Origin: Rhodoluna limnophila
Lineage (GTDB): Bacteria > Actinomycetota > Actinomycetes > Actinomycetales > Microbacteriaceae
Length of the DNA: 64,000 nucleotides
Assembly: GCF_005845365.1 (NCBI RefSeq)
Contig: NZ_CP040509.1
Coordinates: forward strand, 1,054,001-1,118,000
Reading direction: 5' to 3'
In this document: positions 13,281 to 24,775 of the stretch, one piece after another
How positions within the stretch are numbered: the first letter of the stretch is position 1
How the letters are laid out: each line of letters begins with the position of its first letter
Program-made: the position numbers and the translations under genes
Notes under the pieces: model-generated
Databases searched by the model: none
What the model was told of the DNA's origin: nothing
What the model saw: the letters and a program-made list of their open reading frames with translations, nothing else

Positions 13281-13886
13281 CTAGTTGGCCAGGGTGAATA
13301 GCTGGGCCGCGATGTCAGCTGTCACATCGTTGCCCTTTGCTGGTACAGCCTCGGCGATTACAAATTTTGAGATCAAAATGTATCTTGAAGCCTGGCCAAG
13401 TGCCTCAACAAAATCAGAAATTTCCGCCTGCGTGCCGGAAACAGAAACTGACAGCTCCGAAACAAAGAATGAACCAGAAGGCAGCTTGGCTACAGCCTGA
13501 TCGAATTCCGCAGTTGCTACCGACTGAGTCGGCGCGACGTACTGCTGAGGAGCAGAAACACTTAAATTCTGTACTGCCACCGAATTCTCGCTAGCTACGC
13601 CATCGAGTTCGGCCATTACTTCAACGATGTGAAGTTGATTGGGAACCAGAAGTCTTTGCTTGGTGACAGAAATTAGTAGGTTCACTTTGTCAGCGGCATT
13701 TTCCTTGAGAGTTTCCAAAAATTGCCGATGGTTCACATTTTCATCCCGCACTGTCTCGCTGGCGGAATCGAGGGATCGCACCTGCACAAGCGTTGGCATT
13801 ATTCCCAGAAAAATAGTGGCCAAAACAACGACAACCATCAGGGCACCCGCACCAATAGTCCAAGAGTTTTTAGATTTCACGATCAC
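13281..13886 (-). CDS. pilO: PilO-like pilus alignment protein
   Basis: 201 residues: a short cytoplasmic N-terminus, one membrane helix (about residues 11-31), then a coiled-coil-prone stretch (SLDSASETVRDENVNHRQFL) and a C-terminal ferredoxin-like region. This is the PilO plan. PilO pairs with PilN and links the cytoplasmic PilM ring to the pilus shaft. Sequence similarity in this family is weak, so the call rests on topology, length and position as last gene of pilM-pilN-pilO. It overlaps pilN by 4 nt. In this single-membrane organism no PilP or PilQ secretin is expected, and none follows. Confidence 0.7.
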   Translation of the reverse strand: MIVKSKNSWTIGAGALMVVVVLATIFLGIMPTLVQVRSLDSASETVRDENVNHRQFLETLKENAADKVNLLISVTKQRLLVPNQLHIVEVMAELDGVASENSVAVQNLSVSAPQQYVAPTQSVATAEFDQAVAKLPSGSFFVSELSVSVSGTQAEISDFVEALGQASRYILISKFVIAEAVPAKGNDVTADIAAQLFTLAN

Positions 13887-14539
13887 CCTCCATTCACTTG
13901 GGAAGCCTGTGACAGAGCCTCAACCCCAAGGCTAATTGTCAGTGTGGCTTCAAACCCGTTGGATTTTTGATTCAGTTCCGTTACGAGCGCATTTGAATAG
14001 CCTGGCCACTGCCGGGCATCGAGCAAAAAGTACTCCATTCCCGCAAAAGTAGGAGTAAACATCGAAACCTTTGCGGTTACGATGATGGGCTTACCTGTAA
14101 GTGGCTCCACCACAGTCGGCGATTCAGTCGATGAAGGTGCCGAAAGATTAAGACTCAAGATTCTGCCACCGTCAGGCACGGCGTCATGTATGTGGCCGAT
14201 TAAGTGAGACCAGTCGACGTGGGCTGCTTTCGCAACGGTGACGGCCGAATTCAGAAGACGGGACTCATCGATTAGCAGGACTATGTCGGAGTATTGAGCC
14301 TGCTCGGTAAGGATTTCAGTCGTCTCATCTCTGGCAGTGAAAAGGTTGGCTTCACTCGTAAATTTGAGCGACTGAACGCCTGCGTAGCCAAGCCCACAAG
14401 CCACTAGGACTAAGAGGCTAACCAGGGCCAGGCGATGACGGGCCTGCCTTGCCTCATGGAGCGCCTTGATTCTTGGAGGCAGAAAATTTGCTCGCGGTGT
14501 TTGACCGACACGAGGCATTCTGGAGAGCTTGTTTGCCAT
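13883..14539 (-). CDS. pilN: PilN-like pilus assembly protein
   Basis: 218 residues. A basic cytoplasmic tail of about 38 residues (including LPPRIKALHEARQARHR) leads to one membrane helix (ALVSLLVLVACGLGYAGVQS) and an extracytoplasmic domain. PilN uses its cytoplasmic tail to bind PilM and its outer domain to bind PilO; the NxLPP element (here NFLPPRI, residues 18-24) is the PilM-binding motif, close to the usual INLLP form. It starts 1 nt inside the pilM stop (TAATG) and overlaps pilO by 4 nt. Confidence 0.75.
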   Translation of the reverse strand: MANKLSRMPRVGQTPRANFLPPRIKALHEARQARHRLALVSLLVLVACGLGYAGVQSLKFTSEANLFTARDETTEILTEQAQYSDIVLLIDESRLLNSAVTVAKAAHVDWSHLIGHIHDAVPDGGRILSLNLSAPSSTESPTVVEPLTGKPIIVTAKVSMFTPTFAGMEYFLLDARQWPGYSNALVTELNQKSNGFEATLTISLGVEALSQASQVNGG

Positions 14540-15582
14540 TAGTGACTGCCTCCGATCGCTAAACCAATTGCGAGGGCAAAACGACGAATTTTCTCGTCTG
14601 AAGCCCCGAGTTTTGACGATGTTTTAATCTGGTGGACATCGCCATCGATGATGACAGGCAGGTCCACGACTTTAGCTAGGGCATCAGCGAGGCCGGTCAA
14701 TTTTGCGCCACCACCGGATAAAATCAACTGCCCGACTTTGCGGCCGCTTTCATCGTGCGATTGTTCGAAGTAGTCGAGTGTGTTTTTAATACCAGCAACA
14801 AAGTCGCCGATTACTCGTTCAATGCTCGTCAGGGCCTCGACTTCATCCTTATTCTTTGAATCAAATTTGACTTTGGTCTTCAAAGAGTGCGCTTCGGCCT
14901 CGGACAGTTTCAAATCAATCATGAGGGCGTGATCTACGTCGAGCCCACCAACCGGGATTACTCGGACAAATAAAGGAATGCCTCCCTTTGTGATAACCAC
15001 ATTTGTTGCCCCGGCACCGATATCGATTAGAGCTTGCAACTGGTTTTTGTCCTTGGGTATTTTGTGCACTCTCAGGAGGGCGAATGGTACAAAATCAACC
15101 GCAATCGGCCTCAACCTTGCTGCCATTAGGCAGTCCACTAACGAATCAACACTGGCACGTTCCGCCGCAACAGCCAACCCGCGAATAGCTGGCCCAGTCT
15201 CATCGTGCGTATCTTCGGCCGGATAGAAATCCAGAAATAATTGGTTTGGTTCCACTGGAAGAATGCCTTCCATCATGAAAGGCAAAGATTCACGAATTCT
15301 CTGCATACTCATCAATGGAACGGTCAATTCTCGTGCAAAGACATGGAGGCTGCCGGCAGCCACGACCACTTTGCGAGTCTTGAAGCCAGCCTGCTTCCAC
15401 AAATCGACTAGCAACTTGGTCAAAGCAGCACGATCAACAACCTCGCCGGCTTCAATTACACCCTCGGGCAGCGAGATTTCTACCAGCTTTTCGACCTCGG
15501 CCTCGGCACTGGATGCGTGCCGCACTTGGGCAGCTCGTAAAGTTGCAAACCCTACGTCTATACCTACGACTCTATGTGCCAC
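14539..15582 (-). CDS. pilM: Type IV pilus assembly ATPase-like protein PilM
   Basis: 347 residues of the actin/FtsA-like fold. VVGIDVGFATLRAAQV at the N-terminus is the phosphate-1 motif, QALIDIGAGATNVVITKGG the phosphate-2 motif, and LILSGGGAKLTGLADAL the adenosine motif. PilM is the cytoplasmic ring of the alignment complex and couples PilB/PilT/PilC to PilN-PilO. It is cytoplasmic, with no membrane segment. It follows pilD by 18 nt and is translationally coupled to pilN. The call is solid within the pilus operon context. Confidence 0.9.
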   Translation of the reverse strand: MAHRVVGIDVGFATLRAAQVRHASSAEAEVEKLVEISLPEGVIEAGEVVDRAALTKLLVDLWKQAGFKTRKVVVAAGSLHVFARELTVPLMSMQRIRESLPFMMEGILPVEPNQLFLDFYPAEDTHDETGPAIRGLAVAAERASVDSLVDCLMAARLRPIAVDFVPFALLRVHKIPKDKNQLQALIDIGAGATNVVITKGGIPLFVRVIPVGGLDVDHALMIDLKLSEAEAHSLKTKVKFDSKNKDEVEALTSIERVIGDFVAGIKNTLDYFEQSHDESGRKVGQLILSGGGAKLTGLADALAKVVDLPVIIDGDVHQIKTSSKLGASDEKIRRFALAIGLAIGGSH

Positions 15583-15600: not shown

Positions 15601-16446
15601 TCAGCCTACGGCACTACTTAACTGAACGCGCAAAAACTCAAGGTAGGAATTCCAGAGTGCGCCCCCAAACCACAGACCCAAAACGGTACCGACAATCATC
15701 CAAGGACCGAATGGGATAGCCGTTTTACGCCCCGCTTTGCCGAGCCAAATGAGAACTAGACCAAAGATGCTTGCCAAGGCAAAGGGAAATAGTGCCCCAA
15801 GTATGGCCTCGCCCCAGCCGAACCAGGCGAGAATAAACCCCAGAGATCCTGAGAGCTTAAAGTCCCCCATGCCCATAGCACGCGGAAAGAAAAAGACCAA
15901 CACGCCATACACGGCGAGAAAACTCAGACAGCCAACTGCCCCACGGATTAGTGAATCACTGTCACCTGAAATTAGGGATGCGGCTACAAGACTGGAAAGG
16001 CAAACCAGATAAATTGATGTGACTATTGCATCTGGCAACTCCATTGTCTTGACATCGATTGCAGCCAAGGCAATTCCTGCTGAACCAAACCAGAGCATTG
16101 CCACCAGAACAAGCACCCCCGCGGCAGCTTGTTCTTCTGAAAACCAAGCCCAGTCGCTAAAAGCCCAATAGGTGACACCACCAAAGTAGGCGGCCGTTAC
16201 CATTTCTAATGTTGGGTACAGGGTGGAAATAGGTCCTCTACATGTCCTACAGCGACCACCGAGCAACACCCAGGAGAGAAGCGGTACGTTATCAAACCAC
16301 CGAATTTTCGCTCGACAGCCTGGGCAATGACTACGTTCACGAACTAAATCTGATTGCCCCGAAACGGTTCGAGTAACCACTACCCCAAGAAAAGAACCAA
16401 TTGCAAGTCCCAGCAAGGTTGCGATCGCAACCAACAGATTCGTCAT
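15601..16446 (-). CDS. pilD: Prepilin peptidase / N-methyltransferase
   Basis: 281 residues, A24 family. It has an N-terminal zinc-binding domain with two CxxC pairs (HCPGCRAKI and GRCRTCRGPI) between membrane helices, and two catalytic aspartates in ALAAIDVKTMELPD and MGMGDFKLSG. About seven to eight membrane helices. It removes the leader from type IV prepilins and methylates the new N-terminus. Four prepilin-like products are encoded just upstream in the same operon. It may also serve the Tad-type pilin near 57 kb, whose locus lacks its own peptidase. It overlaps the preceding gene by 4 nt. Confidence 0.93.
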   Translation of the reverse strand: MTNLLVAIATLLGLAIGSFLGVVVTRTVSGQSDLVRERSHCPGCRAKIRWFDNVPLLSWVLLGGRCRTCRGPISTLYPTLEMVTAAYFGGVTYWAFSDWAWFSEEQAAAGVLVLVAMLWFGSAGIALAAIDVKTMELPDAIVTSIYLVCLSSLVAASLISGDSDSLIRGAVGCLSFLAVYGVLVFFFPRAMGMGDFKLSGSLGFILAWFGWGEAILGALFPFALASIFGLVLIWLGKAGRKTAIPFGPWMIVGTVLGLWFGGALWNSYLEFLRVQLSSAVG

Positions 16447-18215
16447 TCGCCGCTGTCACTTCGGTTGCGTTGTGAAACTAAGGCCCCGAGCTTATAAGTG
16501 GCTGGGTAGATTGGCCCGCCGCCGATATTGGTCCCTGGCACACCGATGGGTATGTACTCGAGAACTCTAGTGCCACCGCCGCCAGACATGTCACCAGAGT
16601 AAAGCTGGCCCTGCCATTGGGTTCCGTTGTTGATTGCGATTGAGCATGAGGCGTAGACCATGGCAACAACGTGATCTGCAATTACCGAAGGTGTATTTAC
16701 CTGAAAGTCACCTGCACGCCGAACGCATTGTGGGCCTTCTACAGTAGGCTGCGCATCAGGAATAACGAACCACATCCGATGCGTTGCACCGTCGGCTGAC
16801 GAAATGTTCACGACATCGAAATTGAAATCATTTCCAATAAATGCAACATCTGTTTTTAGAGCCAGTTCTACATCACCGGCGACAGTGGCACAGCCACGTG
16901 CGTCGACAACGGTTGGTGCAGAAAGATTTTTCAACTGTTGATAAAACGGATACAGGACACCCGAAGGCGTTGTACTGCTCGAGTCCCCTAGTCTGCAACC
17001 GAGATTTGCAGGCCAATCAAGTTCGGTCTGGAACCCAGTAGCCTGCCAATCGGCAAAATCGTACTCAAAATCGATCCAGTCCGGAACCTCGGGAGCAGGT
17101 TTGGGCGTCGGCGCAACTATTCCAGCTGACTCAAATGAAATTGTTCCTGTGACCAACCCCTGAGCCAGCAATTCGCTTGCCGCAGCAGCGTTGCGCAACC
17201 GCCCGAACGATAGCGTCCCCCCAATATTTATGTTGCCCGTAACGCGGCCAGTATCCACAAAATTTAGGTTTCCCGGAGTAGTAATCGAACCGCCAACCGT
17301 GGAAGCCACAGAAACTGTTGAGCCTGCAGCAATTGTGCTACCCACGCTGCTGCCCTGAACGATGGTTACGGCCCCCGTTGCTTCAATACGACCAATGACC
17401 GCCCCGTGAATTGTCGCTGTGCCATTTGCATACAGACTTCCGCCTACGCGCACTGTGCTGTTTGAGAGGGTGACCCCGGCTCCTGAAGAAATTACGTCTC
17501 CATCGACACGCGATTGTGTAGTCATTGAGATGGAACCCGATGCTATTGCAGACCCTTTGACCCAACAACTATTCGTTAGCATCGCGCTGCCGGACGGCAC
17601 TCGAAGGGTCCCCTCGATAACCGTTGGGCCAGTGCAGTCGAAGTCACCCGATCTGATAGCGATATCGCCCCCTTGACCCCCAGGTGAAAGCACCTCGTAC
17701 GTGTCGAGTTGCCCACCACCAAACAAGTACATCGCGGCTCCTGCGGATGAGGGGCCCGGTCCGGCGCTGCCATAGGAAAAAATGGCCTCAAGAATTTTCG
17801 AGTCTCCCGAACCCCGACCAAGGATTCCCTTCGAGTCGGCCCACCCAGTAGAAATTATCCGCACGTACGTAGTTGTGCTCTGTGGGCAGCCACGCACCCA
17901 GTTTTCTCCGTCCGTTGACCGCCATACTGTGGCCCGGAAAGTTGGCGTCCCAGATTTTTCGTACGTTCCCGACACGGCTTCACAGCTACCCGACCTATTC
18001 AAGCCAGCCACTGCAACTGCGACTCCGCCCTCGGATGCCGCCTGAGATTGGATTTCTGCGCGCGCTATGGTAGAAAACGTGAATGCCGATGTAATGGCGG
18101 ATGCAATCAGCGCGACAACTATTAACCCGACTGCCATCACACCCACAACGGCGAGAAGCGCAGAACCAGTTGATGCAGGTGCCCTTTTGGGCTTCTTGAA
18201 GGTGTTCAGAAACAT
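16443..18215 (-). CDS. Large PilX-like protein with bactofilin-like repeat region
   Basis: 590 residues, not assignable to one known family. The N-terminus (GSALLAVVGVMAVGLIVVAL, then a long helix ending AASEGGVAVAVAGLNR) resembles PilX/pilus-accessory N-termini. Residues about 185-345 contain short repeated beta-strand units of the kind V.G....G.....S.V.G.I, as in polymer-forming bactofilin/DUF583 beta-solenoids (for example VDGDVISSGAGVTLSNSTV and GGSLYANGTATIHGAVIG). The C-terminal 200 residues are a separate domain with several cysteines (LGCRLGDSS, ARGCATVAG, PQCVRRAG, YASCSIAIN). It lies between the minor pilins and pilD and overlaps both neighbours, so it is part of the operon. A tip-located minor pilin or adhesin with a solenoid stalk is my inference. 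Confidence 0.65.
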   Translation of the reverse strand: MFLNTFKKPKRAPASTGSALLAVVGVMAVGLIVVALIASAITSAFTFSTIARAEIQSQAASEGGVAVAVAGLNRSGSCEAVSGTYEKSGTPTFRATVWRSTDGENWVRGCPQSTTTYVRIISTGWADSKGILGRGSGDSKILEAIFSYGSAGPGPSSAGAAMYLFGGGQLDTYEVLSPGGQGGDIAIRSGDFDCTGPTVIEGTLRVPSGSAMLTNSCWVKGSAIASGSISMTTQSRVDGDVISSGAGVTLSNSTVRVGGSLYANGTATIHGAVIGRIEATGAVTIVQGSSVGSTIAAGSTVSVASTVGGSITTPGNLNFVDTGRVTGNINIGGTLSFGRLRNAAAASELLAQGLVTGTISFESAGIVAPTPKPAPEVPDWIDFEYDFADWQATGFQTELDWPANLGCRLGDSSSTTPSGVLYPFYQQLKNLSAPTVVDARGCATVAGDVELALKTDVAFIGNDFNFDVVNISSADGATHRMWFVIPDAQPTVEGPQCVRRAGDFQVNTPSVIADHVVAMVYASCSIAINNGTQWQGQLYSGDMSGGGGTRVLEYIPIGVPGTNIGGGPIYPATYKLGALVSQRNRSDSGE

Positions 18216-18808
18216 GGCTCACTCTCCCAAGTGCCGGCAACAGCAGAGACTGTTTTACGAATACTCACTGGCGGTGTGCCCGCCAATTTTGAGTCAAAAA
18301 ATAAACTCAAACGGGACCCGCTCAGACTAAAAATTCCACTCGTGTTTTTCGCGATAATGCCTTCGCCAAGAACTAACCATTGATCTCGCTCCTCAGCAGT
18401 TGGAACTGGAATCGCGGTGGAAGATCGATGAAAAAGTACTCGCCCATCGCCTTGGGACTCGAAATACCAAGCTAAACAAGTCCAAGAAATATTTGCCCCT
18501 GCTGTGGCACTCCTTGCAACAACGAACTGGTCGGCGGTGTTGACGCTGTCAAGCCGAACAGCGGTCGCATTTCGAATGCCAGTGTCAACGCTTTTTGCAA
18601 TTAGCTGCGCTTGTTGCGAGGCACTTGAACCATTTACAACATTTCTTTGGACATTCAGCATCGTGGAGAGCATTCCCGCAAGCATGGTCAGCACAATCAG
18701 CGTTAAGGCTGAGTAGAGCAAGACCTCGATCAGGCCAACACCCTTAGTCGATGTAAATTTTGGACAAGCTTTGAGGAACCTCGATAAGCCGGTCATTTTA
18801 GTTTGCAC
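18206..18808 (-). CDS. PilW-like minor prepilin
   Basis: 200 residues. A basic leader ends in STKG, followed by VGLIEVLLYSALTLIVLTML. This is a class III prepilin signal with cleavage after Gly, Glu at mature position 5 and a hydrophobic helix, although Val replaces the usual Phe at position 1. The rest is a soluble domain. The long N-terminal leader is about 24 residues. It sits between a PilV-like gene (11-nt overlap) and the 590-residue protein (10-nt overlap), as minor pilins usually do. It probably forms part of the tip complex that starts pilus assembly. The exact minor-pilin name is uncertain because these proteins diverge strongly. Confidence 0.7.
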   Translation of the reverse strand: MQTKMTGLSRFLKACPKFTSTKGVGLIEVLLYSALTLIVLTMLAGMLSTMLNVQRNVVNGSSASQQAQLIAKSVDTGIRNATAVRLDSVNTADQFVVARSATAGANISWTCLAWYFESQGDGRVLFHRSSTAIPVPTAEERDQWLVLGEGIIAKNTSGIFSLSGSRLSLFFDSKLAGTPPVSIRKTVSAVAGTWESEPCF

Positions 18809-19226
18809 TTTGAAGATAGATGAGCGTCGTTGCTCTAACGAGTTCCTGATTTCTATCCAAACGGCTTACCGAAACAGTCAAGGCAACAGTGCCTGGATAG
18901 AACGTAGGGCAGGCGGCTAACTCGTCGGCGACGTGCAGTGTTATTCCTCGAGAATCCGTTGTATCAGGAAATGTCGAGGCGAGGAAGGCCACCACGGAAT
19001 CGCAGGTGGATCCGGCCTGACGAGCTGCATCCAGCCTCGATGAGAGGAGATGAGTTGCCATCGAGAGCACTGCATTATTCGTTGATTGCTGAATTCCGGC
19101 TAGAAGCGCTGGGACAAGAGCCAGTGAAAGGGTGGCCAAAACAAACATGGCCACAACAATTTCTACGAGACTGAAACCCTGGTTTGAGACCGTTGACTTT
19201 GACTTGACTTTTCTTAGCATCTTCAA
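18798..19226 (-). CDS. PilV-like minor prepilin
   Basis: 142 residues. The leader ends NQG and is followed by FSLVEIVVAMFVLATLSLALVP, an almost textbook prepilin motif with Phe at +1 and Glu at +5. The short globular part has two cysteines (STCDSVV and LAACPTF) that may form a disulfide. FSLVE(I/V)..AM is commonly seen in PilV/PilI-type minor pilins. The gene starts 30 nt after the hairpin that follows pilA, and overlaps the PilW-like gene by 11 nt. It is likely a low-abundance priming subunit. Confidence 0.8.
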   Translation of the reverse strand: MKMLRKVKSKSTVSNQGFSLVEIVVAMFVLATLSLALVPALLAGIQQSTNNAVLSMATHLLSSRLDAARQAGSTCDSVVAFLASTFPDTTDSRGITLHVADELAACPTFYPGTVALTVSVSRLDRNQELVRATTLIYLQSAN

Positions 19227-19307: not shown

Positions 19308-19721
19308 CTATGGACAAACCCCAGTAGCAACGCCACCGGTAGGCCCAACATGGAAATTGGCACCAGTCGCTGACAATGACTGGATGCAGAAGGTACCTGC
19401 CGGTGGAGTTTGATCGATGGTCACGGTAACACCATCCGACTGCACGAACCCGAAGGTTTCTAGATCAGTCGTCGACAATGTGAAGTTGCCAGAGTTAGAC
19501 ACAGAGTACGAAATCATTGCGACCTTGGCGTTGGCCAAGTCTGATTTTGCAGCTGAGTCCTTGGCCTGGTCCTGCTGACCCAGAAAGATTGGGATGGCGA
19601 TGGCCGAAAGGATTCCGATAATCAAGACCACTACCAAAAGTTCAATGAGCGAGAAGCCCTTCTGGTTTTTGGTCTTGGTCTCAGTAAGGCCCCCAAGGCG
19701 TTTGATGAGTTTGTTGTTCAT
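19308..19721 (-). CDS. pilA: Major type IV pilin
   Basis: 137 residues from ATG 19721, which has a perfect TAGGAGGT ribosome-binding site; an upstream in-frame ATG at 19757 lacks one. A 22-residue leader ends KNQKG, then FSLIELLVVVLIIGILSAIA, the classic prepilin motif with Phe+1 and Glu+5. The mature pilin has about 115 residues and a C-terminal cysteine pair (TFCIQ and GVCP), typical of the disulfide-bonded D-region of type IVa pilins. The strong ribosome-binding site, the promoter-sized gap upstream (99 nt) and the hairpin downstream all suggest it is the abundant fibre subunit. Confidence 0.93.
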   Translation of the reverse strand: MNNKLIKRLGGLTETKTKNQKGFSLIELLVVVLIIGILSAIAIPIFLGQQDQAKDSAAKSDLANAKVAMISYSVSNSGNFTLSTTDLETFGFVQSDGVTVTIDQTPPAGTFCIQSLSATGANFHVGPTGGVATGVCP

Positions 19722-19793
19722 TTTGTACCTCCTATATTTTTGTGGTGCTATCCCCAAACATACTCTTGTCCAGGAAAATCTCGAGTGTCGTCT

Positions 19794-19820: not shown

Positions 19821-21050
19821 TCAACGAATCACGTTAAAAATCGTGAAGATTGGCAAGTACAAAGTCACGATCATGCCACCAATCACAATGCCAATAAATG
19901 CAATCATCAGCGGCTCGATAAGAGCAGTTAGCTGAGTTGTTGTGGCATGAATTTCTTGATCGTAAAAATCAGCAATCTTGCCTAGCATGACTTCGAGCGA
20001 ACCGGCGTCTTCACCCACGGAAATCATTTGCGTGACCATTGGTGGGAACATTTTTTCACTTGCCATAGGCTGTGAAACCGTGGTGCCAAGGCGCACAGAT
20101 TCTTGTACGCGAGCCAACGAGCCCTCAACTTGCCAATTGCCCGCAGTGCTAGCAACAACACCCAGTGCCTGCATGATTGGAACACCCGCGCCGATCATGC
20201 TTGAAAAATTCCTAGTAAATCTAGCAATGGCAATTTTCTTAAAGAGCGGCCCGAACACTGGAATTTTGAGTTTGATTGGATCGATGATTTTGCGGATCCA
20301 TGGCTTATTTTTGTTTTTCCCCCACCATGCAAAAAATGCAAGACCAACGACCAGCAGGATGGGTGAACCCCAAGCCGCTATTGGCGACAAAGTAACCAGA
20401 ACTTGGGTTGGCCAAGGAAGCACTCCACCGAGGTCTTTAAACATATTTTCAAAGACCGGCACGATAAAAATTAGCATCGCAATAACGCCAACAACTGCCA
20501 TTAGAAGGACTGCCACAGGATAGGTCATCGACGAGCGAATTGATGCCCTGAGCCTGGCCTCAGATTCGAAGGTATCTGCGATTGAATTCAATGCTTTGTC
20601 AAGGAATCCACCAGTCTCGCCGGCTCGAACCAAACTAGTCATAATTTGCGGAAATATTTCCTGGTGCCGCTCTAGGGCCATGGATAGGGTCATTCCCGAT
20701 TGAACATCAACACGAACATCGACCAGGGCTCTGGCCAGGCGAGGTTTCTCAGTTTGTGAAGCCAAAATTGAAAGCGCCTTCGTTAACGGTAGACCCGACG
20801 ACACCATCGTCGACAACTGCCGAGTCGCAACGGCAAGGTCTTTTGGTGAAACCGTCCGATTTAGTTCGGGTAGACGGAACGGATTTCTAACCTCGGTCAA
20901 AACGCTGGCTTCGGTGATTTCAACCGGAGTCAAACCCTCAGATCGCAAGAGGTCAAGCACCGTGAGACGAGCATCAGCATCGATTCGGCCATTAACCAAC
21001 TGCCCTTTATCGTTCCTCGCCTTGTAGGAGAAACTAGTAGTCCTTGCCAT
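19821..21050 (-). CDS. pilC: Type IV pilus platform protein PilC
   Basis: 409 residues, two tandem T2SSF domains as in PilC/GspF. The N-terminus FSYKARNDKGQLVNGRIDA is typical. Signatures include LVRAGETGGFLDKALNSIAD (first half), ARFTRNFSSMIGAGVPIMQAL and MISVGEDAGSLEVMLGKIADFYDQE (second half). There are three membrane helices (near residues 170-195, 215-240 and 375-400). PilC is the inner-membrane platform turned by PilB or PilT. It follows pilT after 9 nt. Full length and intact. Confidence 0.95.
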   Translation of the reverse strand: MARTTSFSYKARNDKGQLVNGRIDADARLTVLDLLRSEGLTPVEITEASVLTEVRNPFRLPELNRTVSPKDLAVATRQLSTMVSSGLPLTKALSILASQTEKPRLARALVDVRVDVQSGMTLSMALERHQEIFPQIMTSLVRAGETGGFLDKALNSIADTFESEARLRASIRSSMTYPVAVLLMAVVGVIAMLIFIVPVFENMFKDLGGVLPWPTQVLVTLSPIAAWGSPILLVVGLAFFAWWGKNKNKPWIRKIIDPIKLKIPVFGPLFKKIAIARFTRNFSSMIGAGVPIMQALGVVASTAGNWQVEGSLARVQESVRLGTTVSQPMASEKMFPPMVTQMISVGEDAGSLEVMLGKIADFYDQEIHATTTQLTALIEPLMIAFIGIVIGGMIVTLYLPIFTIFNVIR

Positions 21051-21059
21051 CTGCCGCTC

Positions 21060-22214
21060 CTACCTAGGTTTTTTTCCGTGGGGATTCATCTTCGAGTCCG
21101 CCTCTACTGCCAAGAACCCATGACCACGGCCAATTAGCTTCATCAAGGCTTCACGATCATGTGCCACGTCATACGCCGCCTGCAAGGAAATCAGTCTGGA
21201 CTGCACTCGGTTCGCTAAGTCTTGATCAAGACCCTGCATACCTTCATCCTTGCCGGCCATCATGGTGGTAGGTATTTGGAAAGCTTTGTTTTCTCGAATC
21301 ATGTTGGCAATAGCTGGATTGACGACAAGAATTTCAGAAGCGGCCACCCTACCCTTACCGCTGATGTGAGGTACCAGGACCTGGCTGACAATGCCCCGCA
21401 GTGTTAGGGCAAGTTGAATTCGTATCTGAGCTTGCTGATCCGCAGGAAACACGTCGACAATACGATTGATTGTCTGTGCGGCATCCTGAGTATGAAGGGT
21501 GGCGAACACTAGGTGCCCGGTTTCAGCCGCAGTCAAAGCGGCTGAGATAGTCTCGTAGTCTCTCAGTTCACCAATCAAAATCACGTCCGGGTCTTGCCGA
21601 AGCACGTGTCGGAGAGCATCCGCAAAACTATGGGTGTCTGAGCCAACTTCGCGTTGGTTCACCATGGCTTTGTCGCTGGAATGAACAAACTCAATGGGGT
21701 CTTCGACCGTCATAATGTGCACCGCACGAGAATGATTGATCCGATCAATCATTGCGGCTAGGGTGGTGGACTTTCCGGACCCAGTCGGCCCGGTAACCAA
21801 AACCAAACCACGAGGTAGCTCGGTAAAACTTGCCAAGACTTCCGGTACACCCAGCGCTTCTAGGCTCAAAATTTTCTCAGGAATTACACGGATGGCAGCG
21901 CCCATGCAGTTCTGCTGGAGGTACAGATTTATCCTGAACCTGATTGCGTTATTGAGCTTGAATGAAAAATCTAACTCCAGATCAGCTTCAAATCGATTGC
22001 GTTGCTCCTCGTTGAGAAGGCTCATTAAGTAGGCTTCAACATCCGCTTTGGACCAAACGCCTGCACCCGGCAGATTCATTAGCGCACCGTCAACGCGAAT
22101 CTTCGGAACAGCATCACAAATTACATGCAAATCGGATGCTCGAAGATTCGGGAGGCTTTCAAGCACACTGAGGATGGCAAGCTCCGGTGCGCTGGTGCGA
22201 TGTAGATTACTCAT
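21060..22214 (-). CDS. pilT: Pilus retraction ATPase PilT
   Basis: 384 residues. Walker A is VTGPTGSGKST (residues 141-150), the Asp box lies in MTVEDPIEFVHSSDKAMVNQREVG, Walker B is DPDVILIGELRDYETI and the His box is HLVFATLHTQDAAQTINR. Residues AIANMIRENKAFQIPTTM correspond to the AIRNLIRE motif needed for retraction in PilT, which separates it from PilB. It powers depolymerisation of the pilus and hence twitching or DNA pulling. It begins 2 nt after pilB and precedes pilC by 9 nt. Confidence 0.94.
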   Translation of the reverse strand: MSNLHRTSAPELAILSVLESLPNLRASDLHVICDAVPKIRVDGALMNLPGAGVWSKADVEAYLMSLLNEEQRNRFEADLELDFSFKLNNAIRFRINLYLQQNCMGAAIRVIPEKILSLEALGVPEVLASFTELPRGLVLVTGPTGSGKSTTLAAMIDRINHSRAVHIMTVEDPIEFVHSSDKAMVNQREVGSDTHSFADALRHVLRQDPDVILIGELRDYETISAALTAAETGHLVFATLHTQDAAQTINRIVDVFPADQQAQIRIQLALTLRGIVSQVLVPHISGKGRVAASEILVVNPAIANMIRENKAFQIPTTMMAGKDEGMQGLDQDLANRVQSRLISLQAAYDVAHDREALMKLIGRGHGFLAVEADSKMNPHGKKPR

Positions 22215-22216
22215 AA

Positions 22217-23884
22217 TTAGGCCACCACCCTTAGCACTTCTTCGATGCTGGTTAAACCTTCGGCGACCTTGGCAAATCCGTCATCGCGCAGGGTTGACAT
22301 TCCTTCGCTAATTGCAAGAGCCTCAATTTCCGAACTTGAAGCACGGTCGAGAATAAGGCGTTCTATACCTTCGGTAATGGGCATGACTTCATGAATAGCC
22401 AGGCGGCCTCGGTACCCAGTTTTTGAGCACCGGTTGCATCCTCCTGGCCCAAAGAAGGTTGCATCTTTATGCTTGGGGCTATCCAAGAAACCTGCAGCTT
22501 TTAGATGTGACTGCTTCGGCTCAAATTCAATTTTGCATTCACCGCAAAGCCGCCTAGCGAGCCTCTGCGCCATTACACAGTCAAGTGCCGAAGCAACGAG
22601 AAAAGGCTCGACACCCAATTCGATAAGCCGAGTAACGGCGCTAGGGGCGTCATTGGTGTGAAGTGTGGAAAGCACTAGGTGACCGGTTAGGGCTGACTCA
22701 ACGGCTATCTGCGCGGTTTCGCGGTCTCTAATCTCACCCACCATCACGATGTTTGGGTCAGCGCGCAGGATGGAGCGAAGTGCATTCGCGAAGGTTAGAC
22801 CTGCCCGCTGGTTTACCTGCATTTGATTGATACCGAGCATTCGATACTCAATCGGATCTTCAATTGTGATGACATTAACCTCGGGGCCAGAAACGACACC
22901 CAGGCTGGCGTATAAAGTGGTCGTCTTTCCGGAGCCGGTTGGTCCAGTAACCAGAGTCATACCCCAAGGTTTTTCGACAGCACTCCGATAGGCCTCTAGG
23001 TTCTCGGGCCTCAACCCAAGCTCCTCGAAAGTCATGTTGGTGGTGCGGCTGTCCAAAATTCGGAGGACTATCTTCTCGCCCCAAACTGTTGGAAGGCTTG
23101 CAACGCGAAGATCACGGGTCTCTGAACCAGACGTAAAGGTCATGCGCCCATCTTGGGGAATTCGTCGTTCCGAGATATCCATGTCACTCATAACTTTGAT
23201 TCGTGACAGAATCTCAGCCTGAATACTTTTTGGTTGCCGCTGGGACTCATGTAAGACTCCATCAATCCGGAACCGGATCCTGAGATCATGCTCTCCCGGC
23301 TCCAAATGGATATCTGAGGCGCGATCTTGGATTGCCTGAGCAATGAGCAGGTTCACGAAACGAACAATTGGGGCATTTTTTTCAGAATCATCATCAATTA
23401 TCTTGATTGCTTGCTTGGCATGCCCCTGTTGAATTTCGCTACTTAGACTCGTCAGCTCTTCGTCAGATCTTAGGAATGTGTTGATCGCAGTTAGTATCTC
23501 CTCGCGGGAAGCTACTACCGGCTCAATAATCATTTTTGTGGCCGCACGCACATCATCGATTGCGACGACATTGGTCGGGTCGGACACGGCAAGGGTTAGA
23601 ATGTTGCCCTGTTGTTCCAGCGGTAGCAAAGTGTGTCGTCTGCAAAGTTCTGCCGGGATCAGGGCGATAGTAGTGGCGTTGACTGGGTAATCCTTTACGC
23701 TCACAAACTTAGTGTTACTCCTAGCTGCTGCGGCCTCTGCCATATCGCGGCTAGTAATTAGACCTTTTTTTAGAAGGAGATTCGCCAACTCCTCGTCAGA
23801 GTCAGCAATTCCCTGAAATTCCTCGATTTGCTCGCGAGAAATTAATTTTTTAGTGACAAAAATGTCGATTAGTGACCGATACAT
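22217..23884 (-). CDS. pilB: Pilus extension ATPase PilB
   Basis: 555 residues. An N-terminal MshEN-type domain (residues about 1-140) precedes the GspE/PilB ATPase domain with Walker A GPTGSGKTT (314-322), Asp box TIEDPIEYRMLGINQMQVN, Walker B DPNIVMVGEIRDRETAQ, and His box HLVLSTLHTNDAPSAV. A tetracysteine zinc motif (LCGECKIEF then GGCNRCSKTGYRGR) lies near residues 462-505, as in true assembly ATPases. It drives pilin polymerisation. It starts 3 nt after the solute-binding lipoprotein gene, so the two are on one transcript. Confidence 0.96.
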   Translation of the reverse strand: MYRSLIDIFVTKKLISREQIEEFQGIADSDEELANLLLKKGLITSRDMAEAAAARSNTKFVSVKDYPVNATTIALIPAELCRRHTLLPLEQQGNILTLAVSDPTNVVAIDDVRAATKMIIEPVVASREEILTAINTFLRSDEELTSLSSEIQQGHAKQAIKIIDDDSEKNAPIVRFVNLLIAQAIQDRASDIHLEPGEHDLRIRFRIDGVLHESQRQPKSIQAEILSRIKVMSDMDISERRIPQDGRMTFTSGSETRDLRVASLPTVWGEKIVLRILDSRTTNMTFEELGLRPENLEAYRSAVEKPWGMTLVTGPTGSGKTTTLYASLGVVSGPEVNVITIEDPIEYRMLGINQMQVNQRAGLTFANALRSILRADPNIVMVGEIRDRETAQIAVESALTGHLVLSTLHTNDAPSAVTRLIELGVEPFLVASALDCVMAQRLARRLCGECKIEFEPKQSHLKAAGFLDSPKHKDATFFGPGGCNRCSKTGYRGRLAIHEVMPITEGIERLILDRASSSEIEALAISEGMSTLRDDGFAKVAEGLTSIEEVLRVVA

Positions 23885-23887
23885 TCT

Positions 23888-24775
23888 CTACTCTTCCCCG
23901 TTCACTGTTGCCTGCGCCATGGCGCCCGCCTGAACACCCCAAGAGGCAAGAATTGTGCGATAGGTTCCGTCATTAATCGAAGCTTGTGTGGCCAGCTGCA
24001 GAGCCTTTGCCAACGAGCTACCTTTCGCAACTGGAAAACTGTAATCGAAAAGGTCATACGGCTCTTCAATAGCCTTTAGCTTGCTCCCAGATTGCTTAAC
24101 CGCGTATAACGTAACCGGCGAATCGGCAACAAATGCATCCACGCGACCAATCAACAACGCCTCTGAGGCATCCTGCTGGTTGTCATAGCTCAAGACCTTC
24201 AGCTCGGCGCGACCCTGGTCAAGGCACTGTTGGCTCCGAGCAGGTAATTCCTCTTGCTCCTGAAAAATTCCGGACTGAACTGCGATTCTCAAACCACAGG
24301 CATTCCTCGGATCAATTTGCTGTTGACCAGACTTTTGAGCCCAAAGGCTGCCCGCGGAATAATAATTGACCATGTCGACTAACATCCTGCGTTCCGGGGT
24401 ATCAAACATTGAAGAAACAGCTGTGTCTACACGGTTGGCCTCGACGGCCGGAATGATTGAATCAAACCTGTAGTTCTGAAATCGAACGCTGACGCCTAGT
24501 TTGTTTGCGATTTGCTCGACGAGTTCGACTTCCCAACCTGAAAAAGATCCGTCGATGGCCTTGAATTCGTTTGGCGGATACGTCGCATCGATTGCGACTC
24601 TAATCAACCCTGAGTTTCTAATGCTGGCGGGCAGTGCCGCGCGCGCCTCTGCATCGACTAGCGGGTGCGAGCTTTGCGAAGGACTCGGTGAGGGCTGACC
24701 AGAGTTTGAGGTGCATGAGGCCAGGCCCAGCCCAATGCATGCCAGAGTTGCGACAAACAGCAATCTTCGTTTCAT
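23888..24775 (-). CDS. Family 3 solute-binding lipoprotein at head of the pilus operon
   Basis: 295 residues. The signal peptide ends in lipobox LASC with Cys21, then a Ser/Pro-rich linker. The mature part begins IRNSGLIRVAIDATYPPNEFKAIDG and has GWEVELVEQIANKLGVSVRF and ANRVDTAVSSMFDTPERR, the SBP_bac_3 family pattern for amino acids or similar small molecules. No permease or ATPase gene is adjacent. The next gene, pilB, starts 3 nt after its stop, and this is the first gene of the whole pilus cluster. It may sense a nutrient for pilus function, or may serve an ABC transporter encoded elsewhere. The role is inference; the family is clear. Confidence 0.85.
   Translation of the reverse strand: MKRRLLFVATLACIGLGLASCTSNSGQPSPSPSQSSHPLVDAEARAALPASIRNSGLIRVAIDATYPPNEFKAIDGSFSGWEVELVEQIANKLGVSVRFQNYRFDSIIPAVEANRVDTAVSSMFDTPERRMLVDMVNYYSAGSLWAQKSGQQQIDPRNACGLRIAVQSGIFQEQEELPARSQQCLDQGRAELKVLSYDNQQDASEALLIGRVDAFVADSPVTLYAVKQSGSKLKAIEEPYDLFDYSFPVAKGSSLAKALQLATQASINDGTYRTILASWGVQAGAMAQATVNGEE

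Follow-up and report, generated by a model that had tools for sequence, protein, structure and literature searches.

Modular pilins are widespread (PMC8179133), and ComZ of Thermus thermophilus, a GspK-like pilin into which a beta-solenoid is inserted (PMC6561018), is the closest described counterpart of the protein analyzed here. Both reports overturn the view taken in the preliminary description that no described type IV pilus (T4P) component joins a pilin-like N terminus to a solenoid. The K subunits lack Glu5, cap the tip complex and are placed after the I and J subunits (PMC9934059; PMC10191384). The tip effector of diderm type IVa pili (T4aP), PilC/PilY1, is described as absent in monoderms (PMC9934059), and in the monoderm Streptococcus sanguinis the T4aP minor pilins PilB and PilC (with PilA) carry an adhesive module and have been proposed as tip effectors that replace it (PMC8179133, PMC9934059). 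Actinobacterial pili studied up to 2019 were assigned in a review of that year to the Tad/Flp type (PMC6916266).

The window, a stretch of 64,000 nucleotides of Rhodoluna limnophila DNA, holds a T4P operon in which one open reading frame (16443-18215, minus strand, ATG start) specifies a 590-aa protein, hereafter the solenoid pilin, for which K-type (GspK/PilK/PilX-like) minor pilin of modular build is the more apt description. All genes of the operon lie on the minus strand. Transcription would run from the extension ATPase PilB (22217..23884; PF00437 and the MshEN domain PF05157) through a PilT-like retraction ATPase (21060..22214; PF00437, E 2.3e-50) and the platform protein PilC (19821..21050; PF00482, E 7.8e-61) to a probable major pilin (19308..19757; PF07963, E 7.3e-10). 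Two Glu5 minor pilins follow, the one I-type by position (18798..19226; motif GFSLVEIVV; PF07963, E 5.3e-6) and the other J-type by position, as judged from its prepilin motif, GVGLIEVLL with Glu5, and from operon order (18206..18808). Next come the solenoid pilin, the prepilin peptidase PilD (15601..16446; PF06750 and PF01478), PilM (14539..15582; PF11104, E 3.8e-30), a protein that is PilN-like by position (13883..14539; gene order only, with no meaningful match in Pfam) and a PilO-like protein (13281..13886; PF04350, E 0.0018, under its cut-off). The solenoid pilin gene thus lies among minor pilins and pilD and overlaps both neighbors, as first described, by 4 nt with pilD and by 10 nt with the upstream minor pilin gene. 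No DNA-level tandem repeat was found, and promoter and terminator scans gave results no better than those for shuffled sequences.

The apparently first gene of the pilus operon encodes a family 3 solute-binding lipoprotein (23888-24775, minus strand; SBP_bac_3, E 4.1e-28) and ends 3 nt upstream of pilB. Lipoprotein-like open reading frames occupy the equivalent place in two relatives (locus L014, 16458-17399; locus L016, 15649-16533), which suggests a conserved sensory or accessory role.

The N terminus of the solenoid pilin carries the features expected of a prepilin. A predicted class III signal peptide spans residues 1-17 (18165..18215, minus strand) and ends at an invariant glycine, Gly17, so that the prepilin cleavage site sought at this N terminus is apparent from the motif; Gly stands at -1 before a hydrophobic helix in 35/35 homologs, and mean hydropathy across the 21 residues after it is 2.1-2.8 in every one of them. 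None of the 35 has Glu at +5, a position taken by Ala in 20. A Glu5 pilin is encoded at most 1.1 kb upstream in 34 of these homologs (two such genes, in order, in the window), and pilD lies just downstream in 30. Since the lack of Glu5 and the position after the I and J genes are the described traits of K subunits, we interpret the protein as a K-type minor pilin onto which a module has been grafted. The PilX-type N-terminal helix that had been proposed stands as regards the prepilin site, the missing Glu5 and the predicted pilin-like fold, but not as a match to the family model: Pfam PilX_N (PF14341) found nothing in the solenoid pilin at E values up to 1 and matched a single one of the 35 homologs (E 0.0014), so the PilX/K-type label derives from prepilin features rather than from PilX_N. 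The NCBIfam GspK model gave a weak match (E 0.09).

Residues 18-150 (17766..18164, minus strand) probably form the pilin domain, which contains the conserved Cys78 and Cys110. An AlphaFold2 model of residues 1-190, built from only 5 sequences and of medium confidence, comprises a helix (17-73) followed by four strands (84-147), i.e., the long N-terminal helix and antiparallel beta-sheet of a type IV prepilin. In structural comparison with VIA-align, its best match was S. sanguinis PilA (7o5y; Z 8.3 over 104 residues), itself a Glu5-less tip-complex pilin, whereas the next, unrelated entry scored Z 5.8 and the type II secretion pseudopilin entries 9a1f (Z 5.2) and 2ret (Z 5.0) ranked lower, level with unrelated structures. 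Foldseek searches with the same model returned no significant E values. The protein shares with GspK, PilK and the Pseudomonas-type PilX the absence of Glu5, the last place among the I-J-K genes, an oversized product and an expected position as tip cap; however, the insert of GspK is alpha-helical (PMC8179133), whereas here it is a solenoid. Likewise, the S. sanguinis modules are of vWA and Ig/lectin type and PilC of that species keeps Glu5, in contrast to the solenoid and end domain borne here by a Glu5-less subunit.

The center of the protein had been called bactofilin-like, and this is borne out by a Pfam Bactofilin match (PF04519) at residues 253-331 (E 8.5e-9; 36 bits, above the curated cut-off of 27.9) as well as by structure prediction. 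AlphaFold2, run on the solenoid pilin with four relatives, yielded a confident beta-solenoid (pLDDT 84-95) with rungs of about 16-21 residues, in a model that also contains the long helix at the N terminus and resolves the C-terminal part poorly. The right-handed solenoid anticipated for residues 180-345 is thus predicted, though with a somewhat longer extent, residues ~183-372 (17100..17669, minus strand). Its handedness is supported by the superposition of bactofilin 6rib (rmsd 1.7 A over 100 of its 101 residues, Z 11.9). Bactofilins are small polymer-forming proteins, and those of known structure (6rib, 2n3d) resemble our protein in the right-handed solenoid core; they differ from it in that they consist of a solenoid with short tails, whereas here the solenoid is one domain of a 590-aa, predicted exported pilin. 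Among solved structures, the top match of the solenoid was a Caldicellulosiruptor tapirin (4wa0; Z 14.6, rmsd 3.0 A, 187 residues). Tapirins are cellulose-binding proteins whose genes adjoin a T4P locus. They (4wa0, 6n2b, 6n2c) are the best structural match of this region, but many proteins have solenoid folds in common, and at the sequence level no similarity between tapirins and the solenoid pilin was detected. Foldseek placed tapirins at ranks 1-3 and ComZ at rank 5 (E 0.044), all of these being weak matches (E 0.0075 to 0.044).

A profile of 35 sequences compared with the PDB gave bactofilins as the only significant matches, and ComZ, GspK and tapirin were absent among the matches listed; a single-sequence PDB search with the solenoid pilin gave nothing useful. 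At E 0.01, the Bactofilin model recognizes no more than about half of the homologs. The left-handed hexapeptide enzymes GlmU, LpxA and LpxD reached high VIA-align scores but at 10-12 A rmsd, and we discounted them as probable handedness artefacts. DUF7305 was rejected as a family label; it matched a single homolog, below its cut-off and within the solenoid, and its occurrence does not follow that of the pilus.

Compared with ComZ (6qvi), the solenoid pilin has the same GspK-like pilin portion, large beta-solenoid and minor pilin neighbors, and ComZ too has been proposed as a tip subunit (PMC6561018). No sequence similarity between the two was detected, and the shared design does not imply homology. 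ComZ functions in a diderm host with a secretin and binds DNA, and its solenoid, similar to ice-binding proteins, separates the last two strands of the pilin (PMC6561018), whereas the solenoid here is closest to bactofilins and tapirins and is followed by a large conserved C-terminal domain.

The solenoid is neutral, rich in G, S and T and poor in aromatic residues, and its length is strikingly uneven: the stretch between Cys217 and Trp390 ranges from 63 to 233 residues across homologs, with near-constant flanks (SD 5 for the spacing between Gly17 and Cys217, SD 8 for that between Trp390 and Tyr521). An exact 18-residue quantization of solenoid length, looked for in the homolog spacings, was not clearly seen. 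The C-terminal domain (residues 379-590; 16446..17081, minus strand) is supported by conservation and composition and is modeled by AlphaFold2 mostly at low to medium confidence, its strands at low confidence. It is acidic, contains about 10% aromatics and has conserved positions at W390, C442, C497, Y521, C524 and G536, and no carbohydrate- or protein-binding module of known type was recognized in it. To call this domain cysteine-rich, as had been done, is an overstatement, with 4 of the protein's 8 cysteines in the last 210 residues; the cysteines themselves are nonetheless highly conserved overall, seven columns (78, 110, 194, 217, 442, 497 and 524) being at least 97% conserved in the 35 homologs.

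The distribution of the family ties it to the pilus. Within the genus, the solenoid pilin and PilM occur in the same 3 of 36 genomes, which are also the only ones with the solenoid pilin among 59 relatives, and one of the three (G001) has two of each. On a wider scale, 61 of 299 Microbacteriaceae genomes encode a strong homolog and 60 of these 61 are among the 146 PilM-positive genomes (Fisher p 4e-21, a value that overstates independence because the genomes are related). The single exception (G167) has a strong homolog and no PilM; it encodes PilB elsewhere in the genome and has I and J pilins directly before the gene, so no genome with a strong homolog in this set is demonstrably pilus-less. 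Both the proposed membership in the pilus machine, already indicated by operon position, and the predicted co-occurrence with pili in this family therefore hold. A phylum-level search recovered full or nearly full matches in further families, with pilin and pilD motifs around some of them, and a search for related loci with a three-sequence alignment led to four named contigs. The solenoid pilin family is present in many actinobacterial pilus operons. Six other actinobacterial T4P loci (L019, L020, L021, L022, L023 and L026) encode, at the same position, K-like proteins of ~500-710 aa with no detectable solenoid match. The occurrence of such large proteins in further PilM-positive members of the order suggests that the K position may carry different modules by lineage, through module swapping.

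G001 has two type IV pilus loci (L014 and L015) that each encode a separate solenoid K pilin; the two proteins are ~27% identical, and neither gene has a detectable pilD motif immediately downstream. In G167, an I-J-K minor pilin trio (L073, 9106-11529) stands without adjacent pilD, pilM, pilN or pilO. The patchy occurrence of the pilus locus in the small genomes of the genus (3/36) would reflect either loss or transfer.

Together with the known roles of K subunits, these features lead us to regard the solenoid pilin as probably a modular K-type tip pilin of a monoderm type IVa pilus, its solenoid arm and C-terminal domain being the most likely ligand-binding head and doing the job of PilY1. 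PilD would cut the precursor after Gly17, and the mature, Glu5-less helix would associate with the I- and J-type pilins whose genes lie immediately upstream. The resulting I-J-K complex would start pilus assembly and then end up as the tip cap, with the solenoid as a rigid arm of lineage-dependent length. The solenoid and the conserved C-terminal domain would form an exposed, most likely adhesive head that, carried outward on the tip, would take over the task that PilY1 performs in diderms. Of the tip adhesin on a stiff stalk put forward earlier, the tip position is the best reading and is expected from the K-type features, and a stalk-like solenoid is predicted; we infer the ligand binding, and an adhesin role is plausible. 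PF05567, the PilC/PilY1 beta-propeller, has no match in the solenoid pilin. PilY1 gave no match in the 59 relatives either, but control genomes were equally silent, so this search is weak as evidence of absence.

The head could instead have another ligand. The same tip pilin might be a ComZ-like DNA receptor for natural transformation, with the solenoid and the C-terminal head as its DNA-binding parts, a reading that we consider unlikely. ComZ, the nearest functional precedent for a solenoid pilin, does bind DNA (PMC6561018), and ComEC is encoded in this genome; however, ComEC occurs in nearly all members of the genus, pilus-free ones included, and since it does not track the pilus it supports neither view. 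A neutral solenoid and an acidic C-terminal domain also fit poorly with a DNA receptor, yet ComZ is likewise without an obvious positive patch (PMC6561018). It is quite unlikely that the protein has no specific ligand and serves purely as a structural tip initiator, a K subunit for assembly in which the solenoid is a spacer or cap. The great variation in solenoid length would suit a spacer, and HIJK-type complexes have been described as starting assembly (PMC9934059; PMC10191384); but a C-terminal domain of ~210 residues that keeps its length and the positions of its Cys, Trp and Tyr residues goes beyond the needs of a mere cap.

The remaining readings place the protein outside the filament. 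A cell-wall-spanning guide or scaffold on an ordinary transmembrane helix, proposed in the preliminary description as an alternative to the adhesin, could account for a hydrophobic N-terminal helix followed by an elongated solenoid, but it is very improbable given the invariant prepilin glycine, the lack of Glu5, the I-J-K gene order, the pilin-like fold and a solenoid stretch in some homologs as short as 63 residues, odd for a part that has to span the wall. Hardly credible is a bactofilin that forms a cytoskeletal polymer brought to the base of the pilus: the above-cut-off Pfam match and the close fit of 6rib would agree with it, but the solenoid lies between a pilin domain and a conserved C-terminal domain with cysteines, predicted to be extracellular, and the Bactofilin model fails at E 0.01 in about half of the homologs.

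In the literature outside subscription journals, we found no account of a pilin family with a bactofilin-like solenoid. The solenoid pilin departs from ComZ in its bactofilin/tapirin-like solenoid, which varies in length, in the conserved C-terminal domain that follows, and in its monoderm actinobacterial setting. It adds to ComZ a second solenoid-on-K-pilin design, set apart by its fold affinity, by an arm that varies in length and by its conserved end domain. More tentatively, it is possible that the K pilin that initiates the filament is itself the T4aP tip effector across many monoderm actinobacteria, in which a bactofilin-like solenoid of tunable length would hold a previously undescribed Cys-bearing ligand-binding domain beyond the cell surface in place of PilY1. 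The uncharacterized T4aP of actinobacteria hereby gain a candidate tip effector, and what monoderm T4aP display at the tip becomes directly testable through one gene.
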